Part shown: positions 51,201 through 54,200 of the stretch, in pieces | Layout of the letters: every line of letters starts with the position of its first letter | How positions within the stretch are numbered: the stretch's first letter is position 1 | Assembly: GCA_903813345.2 (NCBI GenBank) | Contig: CAIIXF020000007.1 | Location: 7,755,730-7,819,729 of the forward strand | Direction of reading: 5' to 3' | Origin: Owenia fusiformis | Taxonomy: Eukaryota; Annelida; Polychaeta; Sabellida; Oweniidae | Length of the DNA stretch: 64,000 nt | Notes under the pieces: model-generated | Told to the model about the DNA's origin: nothing | Database searches by the model: none | What the model saw: only the letters and a program-made list of their open reading frames with translations | Made by a program: the position numbers and the translations under genes

Positions 51201-54200
51201 GCTATATGTTTTCCTCCAATATACATACAGCCAAAATCAATGATAATACATTGTATGTGTCAAACCTGTTCTATAACTTGCGGTGTATGACAGATTCGCC
51301 TGCGGTATATGGCATACTCACGAACCAATGAGAACGCGATACGCAAGTACGCAATTGTCAGTTGCATCGATTGAACGAACGGGCAAAAATCAACAGTTGA
51401 CAAAGACCAGATAAAAACCTGCAAAATCACGAGTATTTATGTATTGTGGTATTGGCAACCACGATTTACACATTTCTGATACTTTCAGAAGTATCATTAA
51501 GCTATTACACTCAATAAACTTACAGGATTCATTCATATTAGAACTCATTATATTAGAAAGCACTAAAATATATCCAGCGTAGTTTTCCATTTAGACTCGA
51601 TTATTTTGACCAATCAAATCGAGCCTTTCTGTATCTCGTTTTCAACTGCGGTAAATGGCATATTTCGCGGGTGAGTATGACAAATTCCGCAGGTGAGTAT
51701 CGGGTATTCACTGAAATCAATGTCCTGTATATTCACTGCGGAATATGACATCTCACCTGCTGAATATGCCATATGGCATATTCATCCGTATCACAAATAT
51801 GGCGAAACCATGAATATATGTCATATTCCTCCTTATACCCCCTACCTGTATACACAACTCTTCATAAGTTTTAACTCTGCTTTCTGTAGCTTGTTTAAAA
51901 TATGTTAATGTTTATGAATTGCATTTTTCTTCCTGAATTAGAATTGGTCGGAAACTTATGACTTTGATGAATTTGCTTAAATCGCCAAAACAGCCTGTAA
52001 CACAAATGGGATTGCCAGTTGCCAAACTTTTGAAGGGGAGTGTAAGCCAATCAGGACTGAAATAATGGTTGAAAGGTATACACAGGCTCGATAATATATA
52101 CAACTTACCATATCTATTATTTGGGCAAGGGCTACCCCAAATGTGACATTGAGAGATTCGGAGGAGTTCCTAGAGGGCCTCACTCTGTCATCGTAGTTGT
52201 GGAGTAGGTCCTGGATGAGCCTCATCTCGTAGTCATCCGCGCAGACCACTGAAACAATAACAATCACATCCAGGAAATAGATTAGTATCCAATTGAATTC
52301 GATCACTGAACAATTTCATTTGTAAACTTGAGCAATTTTAATATCCTAAATGCTCCTTTGTGCGATTAAAATGCTGATAATCTAATAAACGAAGTCTACC
52401 CCAGGCATTTTCCTCTCGATGTTAATCTATGCCAATAAATATTAAATATCAAGAACAAATGAATCCTTAGAGTACTATGTAAAATGATATGAGTTTTATT
52501 CGTGATTTGATTATGTATTAGACCTATCATCAACAAAGGGCAAAATTAATTTTGTCATGAAATGTTGGAAAATCAAACAGTTTAATACAACCAGGACAGT
52601 ATACTAGTAGTAGAAATAAAACAGGTCTGATATATAAAAACAATAATAAAAGAGACAAATAGGTTAATTACTAGGAGGGATTGCATATGTGTTTTATACC
52701 GATTATGACATTCCCCATTGTACAAAGGGGAATATCAAATTGACCAAGGTAAATGGTCCAGGGATTTTTCAATGGGCTAAAAATAAGAAAATCTGGCTGA
52801 ACTTTATAAATGTGTCCAAACATCCCCCCTTCCACTTTTGGTCCCTCGTTAATTACTTTCCGGGTACACCAGTATAGGATATCGCAAAACCATGTTAAAC
52901 GGACAAGTTGTTATGCTTTAATACTGATTTTTTGAACAAGTTTTGATATATCAAAGTTTATGTACAAACGTTTAAACCGGAAGTAAGAAATGAAGTGGCG
53001 ATTTTGCAAAAATATTTGATGAGTTTTCATGTTGGAATCGTAATATAGACCTCAGATTAGATATTATATCGAGTAATAAATACCTTGGGGCTAGGCACCA
53101 AGGTAAATGGGCCAGGGATTTTTCAATTGGCTAAAAATAAGAAAATCTGGCTGAACTTTATAAATGTGTCCAAACATCCCCCCTTCCACTTTTGGTCCCT
53201 TGTTAATTATTTTCCGGGTACACCAGTATAGGTTATCGCAAAACCATGTTAAACGGACAATTAGTTGTTATGCTTTAATACTGATTTATTGAACAAGTTT
53301 ATTGATATATCAAAGTTTATGTACAGCATGATGTTTTACAATACACCCACAAACAATTGATTGTCGTTTAGTTTTCGTATTTGCTTTTGGTACGTATACG
53401 CATCATTCACCACTGCGTAGTAATATTTGCCCATCCTGGACCTATATCGTAATAATGTGGGGCACTATCTAGAGTATCTCTTAAACGTTTTCATTATTCT
53501 ATGTAAGTCGAAGCTTCAATACATTTCTTTGTATCATATTTAAAATTCGAACGTGACTATATTCACGCCTTCTATAAACTGTGAACAAAGTAAATAATTC
53601 ACCCGGTATTTATTCGTCGATACAATACCTGGTCTATACCATGGGCTTCCAAAATAATCTAAACTAAGTGTTTCGTTCTGTGCTAAACGCTTAAACCGGA
53701 AGTAAGAAATGAAGTGACGATTTTGCAAAAATATTTGATGTTGGAATCGTAATATCATGGGCTTTCAACTAGTTGAAAGCCCATGGTAATATAGACCTCA
53801 GATTAGATATTATATCGAGTAATAAATACGTTGGGGCTAGGCCCAAAAGCTTTCGAACCCCTCACTCCCTTCGGTCTTTTGGGTTACAGAAAACGTTTGT
53901 GCTTAGCCCTGCGATCGTCGATCTAATGACCTGCTCTAGGTCTATATTTTTTAAACATACAGTATCATAACCAGAAAAAATCTGATCTAGTCATATGTAT
54001 TGAAACTAACTGAGAAAATTCTTTGGGTAAAATACTTATTTAATTTGACGTCATCTGACTGGGATGTTCTTATGAAAGAACGTGTCATGTAATTTAGATA
54101 GGTTCCGCTTTGGTGCGTTTGATTAAAAAACCATCGAAAAAACACAATTCGGGTAATGTGCTGACATGGATAGACTATTCTCATTGGCGTTTGATTTCTC

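Follow-up and report, generated by a model that had tools for sequence, protein, structure and literature searches.

The window analyzed here, a 64,000-nucleotide stretch of the Owenia fusiformis genome, contains a 30-bp sequence, CATGGGCTTTCAACTAGTTGAAAGCCCATG, that is identical to its own reverse complement and has no spacer (Table 1). A sequence-only reading of this DNA had described a spacer-free palindrome bounded on both sides by gtaatat, an arrangement that can be read directly at 53749-53792, and had paired the filled site with an empty one preserved nearby. The pairing holds as well: a paralogous repeat ~700 bp upstream of the palindrome carries gtaatat once and lacks the palindrome, and the site is likewise empty in L005, a relative of the host repeat located on another chromosome (C11). 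Because both relatives are empty, we conclude that the 37 extra bases were added to an older repeat. When positions 53700-53850 were searched against the genome, 48 matches were obtained, 34 of which cover the right part only. When the whole window was searched for 18- to 60-bp stretches with 9-bp inverted ends (1 mismatch or none) lying between exact 7-bp direct repeats, the palindrome site was the single match. Separately, a near match to a transposon end (CATGGGCTTCCAA, 1 mismatch) lies at 53640-53652, 116 bp upstream of the palindrome; no partner end was seen for it, and it is possibly an older, one-sided relic.

Table 1. Positions of the palindrome, its flanking repeats, and the host repeats in the window (TSD, target site duplication)
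Feature	Position	Strand	Basis or reading
Paralogous host repeat, empty copy	52965..53090	+	Alignment
gtaatat, single copy in paralogous repeat (empty site)	53040..53046	+	Alignment with filled copy
Host repeat holding the putative scar	53680..53840	+	Alignment
TSD, left copy, gtaatat, 7 bp	53749..53755	+	Direct reading of the window
30-bp perfect palindrome	53756..53785	.	Read as an excision scar, two transposon ends joined through CTAG
Left transposon end, first 17 nt (putative 3' tail of left flank)	53756..53772	+	Identity with L081 and L084 ends
CTAG common to both tails (putative annealing microhomology)	53769..53772	.	Overlap of 4 in the arm decomposition (17+17-4=30)
Right transposon end, first 17 nt (putative 3' tail of right flank)	53769..53785	-	Identity with L081 and L084 ends
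TSD, right copy, gtaatat, 7 bp	53786..53792	+	Direct reading of the window

The sequence-only reading had proposed that the palindrome was inserted with a 7-bp target duplication and had suggested a genome search for the 30-mer with a tabulation of its flanks. In the genome containing the window (498 Mb, 525 contigs), the 30-mer was found at 208 places with up to 3 mismatches, while the reversed pattern, used as a control, was found at none. Perfect copies numbered 41 among the matches listed. We read 16 distinct perfect copies; the 7-bp direct repeat is exact in 15 of them and has 1 mismatch in the other, and the repeats at all 16 differ from one another. This is the outcome that the sequence-only reading had predicted for a mobile family. 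Multiple copies of a 30-mer with differing TSDs fit a mobile 30-mer and a scar alike and cannot separate the two.

A broader sample was obtained with the end 13-mer, CATGGGCTTTCAA, which has 5439 exact matches in the genome compared with 1 for the control. From the first 100 places listed we used 96 (4 were left out), which correspond to 83 distinct sites, all within the initial 7.8 Mb of a single chromosome. These sites comprise 37 TSD-flanked scars (a count that takes in both members of the L129 tandem pair), 5 intact elements, and 41 sites at which the stretch examined shows no partner end; counted among the 41 are L108, L133 (a 30-bp scar with 2 TSD mismatches), and L123, whose piece is too short to include the right TSD. 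The 37 scars are 18 to 43 bp long, and their 7-bp TSD is exact in 31 and has one mismatch in 6. When left and right flanks were swapped between sites, 1 mismatch or none was seen in 21 of 1332 pairs. The sample thus holds about seven scars per intact element (37 versus 5), and scaling from this small, one-chromosome sample gives an estimate of ~2,000 TSD-flanked scars genome-wide (5439 x 37/96). In a separate set of 30 loci (29 distinct sites), covering ~1.5 kb on each side, there were 16 TSD-flanked scars, 1 site with an eroded TSD, and 12 partnerless sites, and rechecking these 12 for partner ends with up to 2 mismatches and for exact 8-bp TSDs yielded no partner. Partnerless sites are read, as a class rather than site by site, as scars that have eroded, larger elements, or cases in which a deletion ran into the flank.

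The junctions within the scars are heterogeneous. Among the 23 clean scars, those in which both the TSD and the six terminal bases are exact, the two arms overlap in 9, meet bluntly in 5, and are accompanied by extra bases or a mutated arm in 9. Centers of the forms CAATTAG and CAACTAG also occur, and this pair of variants corresponds to the two ends of a single intact element (L085). The centers look like the products of end joining. Two sites stand apart in their layout. L010 holds two scars at 1401-1537, 37 and 30 bp long, whose starts are 93 bp apart and whose TSDs differ, and at L129 an 18-bp remnant, CATGGGCTTTCAACTATG, is present twice, 25 bp apart, adjoining gggaagg, which looks like a tandem duplication of the scar.

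The same ends are found on complete elements. We read five of these (L081, L083, L084, L085, and L086), four of 537 to 542 bp and one, L086, of 643 bp. The main family has a 31-bp terminal inverted repeat (TIR), CATGGGCTTTCAAYTAGAAGGGTAKGCAACT, starting CATGGGCTTTCAAYTAG, with ends that begin with CATG; in L084, the two TIR ends are 96.8% identical. Each 17-nt arm of the window palindrome is the same, base for base, as the outermost 17 nt at either end of L081 and L084. These two elements share 98.5% identity, from which we conclude that activity was probably fairly recent. Main-family ends with up to 3 mismatches number 517 in the genome (control, 0), and other subfamilies have the same first 13 bases, as in CATGGGCTTTCAAGAGA, which has 566 exact matches (control, 0). 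The 537- to 542-bp elements are short and multicopy (517 ends) and carry TIRs and TSDs, as miniature inverted-repeat transposable elements (MITEs) do, and the best reading of the source element is that it is non-autonomous and MITE-like. MITEs such as Stowaway are short TIR elements that leave short footprints on departure; Stowaway-type MITEs belong to another superfamily, and their footprints are shorter than the scars described here.

The TSDs of the intact elements are exact over 7 bp in L081, L084, and L085 and over 8 bp in L083 and L086. In 44 scar rows the duplication stops short of 8 bp, and the remaining rows gave no hit when scanned for an exact 8-bp repeat; this contrast between scars and intact elements (0 versus 2 of 5 with 8 bp) comes from a sample too small to assign a reason. 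In 45 exact 7-bp TSDs, symmetrized, T at position 2 and A at position 6 each have a frequency of 0.77, and scars and intact elements both fall within the TSD pattern of the P superfamily (7 or 8 bp with a GT...AC preference). The elements with 8-bp TSDs have further peculiarities. The left end of L083 reads CAACTACAGCGTAGAAGGG, with 7 extra bases close to the putative cut position, and may represent a cut at one end that was repaired in place. L086 is a distinct element with a TIR starting CATGGGCTTTCAACTACAGTGCTG and extending over 40 bp at 87.5% identity. The motif CTACAG occurs in one end of each.

We then compared how much of the TIR is retained at scars and at intact elements. In 52 non-intact CT-type ends, the match to the intact TIR extends over 15 to 19 nt, the 15-nt minimum being set by selection, and in none of the 52 does it reach 20 nt or more. 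Of 10 ends of intact elements, 5 match over the full 31 nt, and the other 5 diverge earlier from the main-family consensus. Exact genome counts fall with increasing end length, from 1808 for the 17-mer to 1481 for the 18-mer and 421 for the 21-mer (controls, 0), the last being close to the number of intact ends. Because retained ends stop at 15 to 19 nt and the counts drop, we place the cut 17 to 19 nt inside each element end. The retained-length limit and the drop in counts support a long stagger, with which both 17 nt and 18 to 19 nt are compatible. The 18th base is A in 1481 of the 1808 17-mer matches, and this share, together with the counts, speaks for an 18-nt rather than a 17-nt tail, although a base added during repair could mimic this pattern.

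We consider it highly likely (probability of roughly 0.93) that the palindrome is a footprint left by the excision of a non-autonomous element of the P superfamily, with the break sealed by microhomology end joining. This reading starts from features that were observed directly, namely the TSDs, the intact elements with identical ends, the variable scars, the limit on retained length, and the empty relatives of the host repeat. An element with 31-bp TIRs would have inserted at gtaatat and duplicated its target, and a P-type transposase would later have excised it with a long stagger, leaving 17 to 18 nt of each end as single-stranded 3' tails. Each 17-nt tail would read CATGGGCTTTCAACTAG, the final four bases of which, CTAG, are self-complementary; pairing of the tails over CTAG would give 17+17-4 = 30 bp, and trimming, fill-in, and ligation would then produce a TSD, 13+4+13 bp, and a second TSD. 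An 18-nt tail ending in A would lead to the same 30-bp product once the unpaired A was trimmed. The identity of the transposase, the geometry of the cut, and a microhomology-based, polymerase-theta-like repair are thus the parts of the footprint reading that we infer. A bolder version, which we put forward tentatively and consider doubtful on balance, is that the family leaves 18-nt donor tails whose CTAG tip makes the empty site self-healing, with TSDs kept intact and thousands of mild scars, several for each surviving copy.

The best-described system of this kind is the P element of Drosophila melanogaster. P transposase cuts the two strands at different places, one at the 3' end of the element and the other 17 bp into the 31-bp TIR (PMC7776569), and excision leaves 17-nt 3' tails on the donor flanks (PMC2895639). 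In Rad51-deficient flies, the two TSDs at an excision junction enclose the remains of both ends, each at most 17 nt long, with microhomology or filler between them; in 14 isolates, the sequence between the TSDs is CATGATGAAATAAC-AT-GTTATTTCATCATG, a 30-bp perfect palindrome, and in 20 long-microhomology isolates, also a common class, nearly all of the ends was lost (Table 1 of PMC2895639). Scars of the latter kind would escape the end-based searches used here. Polymerase theta contributes to joining after P excision in Drosophila (PMC2895639). The P products thus share with the scars described here the order of TSD, end, microhomology or filler, end, and TSD, along with a common 30-bp palindrome, and they differ in having an 8-bp TSD and another end sequence and in being laboratory induced at one site in a Rad51-deficient background (PMC2895639), whereas the scars here lie at many natural genomic sites with an apparent limit of 17 to 19 nt. 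The main family also shares with the P element a TIR of 31 bp (PMC7776569) that starts with CATG (PMC2895639).

Two other P-superfamily elements of Drosophila resemble the present family in their TSDs, which were compared here rather than the TIR sequences: 1360 has a 7-bp TSD, GTTNAAC (PMC3276498), and Galileo has GTANTAC, 7 and sometimes 8 bp long (PMC4168063), so that a 7-bp TSD with a palindromic GT...AC preference is common to both and to the present family. Galileo differs in its long, internally repeated TIRs (PMC4168063), and the cited portions of the 1360 and Galileo papers make no mention of genome-wide excision scars (PMC3276498, PMC4168063). Footprints of Ds in Arabidopsis have been described (PMC1978519), and the cited portion of a zebrafish paper (PMC10983969) is silent on cut position and scars. 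Among the papers listed in literature searches, none, as judged by titles and abstract openings, deals with genome-wide P-type excision scars.

Several alternatives to the footprint reading were weighed. Had no further copies of the 30-mer turned up, the sequence-only reading would have favored a one-off templated insertion during repair at the window site alone, which would account for the single such site in the window; the 208 genomic copies, with none for the control, refute it. The same reading had taken the 15-bp arms themselves for the mobile element. A minimal transposon consisting of two 15-bp terminal repeats only, and moved in trans by a transposase, is in keeping with the 41 perfect copies among the matches listed, the 208 copies with up to 3 mismatches, and the differing 7-bp TSDs of the 16 that were read, but just 5 of the 37 TSD-flanked scars fall in the 30-bp class, and in the rest the arms are unequal, filler is present, or the overlap is a different one. 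We rejected a mobile 30-mer as a constant unit given lengths of 18 to 43 bp, the many different centers, and the presence of the same ends on intact elements of ~540 bp. The arms, moreover, stop near the P-type cut, the CAATTAG/CAACTAG centers match the two ends of L085, and a 17-nt P-type stagger would be expected to split the 30-mer into two unpaired pieces. A mobile 30-mer is therefore very unlikely; what moved was most likely the full element, with the palindrome being the remnant of its departure.

TSDs around two short ends would also be expected from aborted insertion, in which both cut ends joined the target and the interior was then lost, so that the scar would mark an incomplete insertion rather than an excision. 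Such a history does not explain why loss of the interior should halt at 17 to 19 nt at so many sites, whereas excision predicts this limit, and excision products in Drosophila have the matching form (PMC2895639); we regard aborted insertion as highly improbable. Excision of a transposon from outside the P superfamily, if it happened to cut with a comparably long stagger and to use a target of 7 or 8 bp, would leave much the same footprint, and no transposase has been tied to these ends. This explanation is nevertheless unlikely, since the 31-bp TIR, the CATG start, the GT-N3-AC-like 7-bp TSD, and the long-stagger scars jointly make up the P pattern.

Under the footprint reading, this is a new element family with known behavior, and what is unusual is the number of natural scars. 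One long-stagger cut, repaired independently at very many sites, amounts to a natural experiment, and with so many scars the family is a useful archive of how such elements are cut and the breaks repaired. It can inform on the position of the P-type transposase cut outside Drosophila and on the germline joining of 3'-tailed breaks, both of which are usually studied at few engineered loci; if the 18-nt, self-healing version were true, the scars would document end joining in the germline as it occurs naturally. For repeat annotation, the family is a caution that a perfect palindrome present in many copies and bordered by target duplications can be a footprint rather than an element.

An autonomous partner was sought through both P-like domain families and through TIR and TSD scans, and no transposase with these TIRs was found. 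The genome has 13 matches to PF21787 and 11 to PF21788, and one open reading frame matches the P transposase structure 6p5a (2.3e-15). No TIR (up to 4 mismatches in 17) was found in the 1.5-kb flanks of the 13 P-like transposase loci, and wider flanks of three of the loci gave six weak 13-mer matches (up to 3 mismatches) and no convincing TIR-plus-TSD pair. Since no transposase is tied to the TIRs, the assignment to the P superfamily rests on anatomy. As a weak lead, L082 carries two scars, and the sequence lying between them aligns at 78% with 94 bases of the P-like locus L069. Four P-like transposase regions (L063 to L066), in which element ends were looked for and none were found, are about 99% alike, with L063 rearranged relative to the others; their near-identity suggests recent activity. 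The longest end pair among those listed spans 5069 bp (G000:C1:29922971-29928039, of which L141 is a piece). Although the strongest candidate for a full-length copy, it was rejected as such, as a 501-base piece of its interior has no stop-free stretch longer than roughly 90 codons and has copies of 93 to 99% elsewhere. None of 12 other copies of this piece scored on C1 to C3 lies near the exact ends listed there, and for this reason we read the interior as a nested repeat. The 5069-bp pair is probably a copy of the short element interrupted by a dispersed repeat that is unrelated to it.
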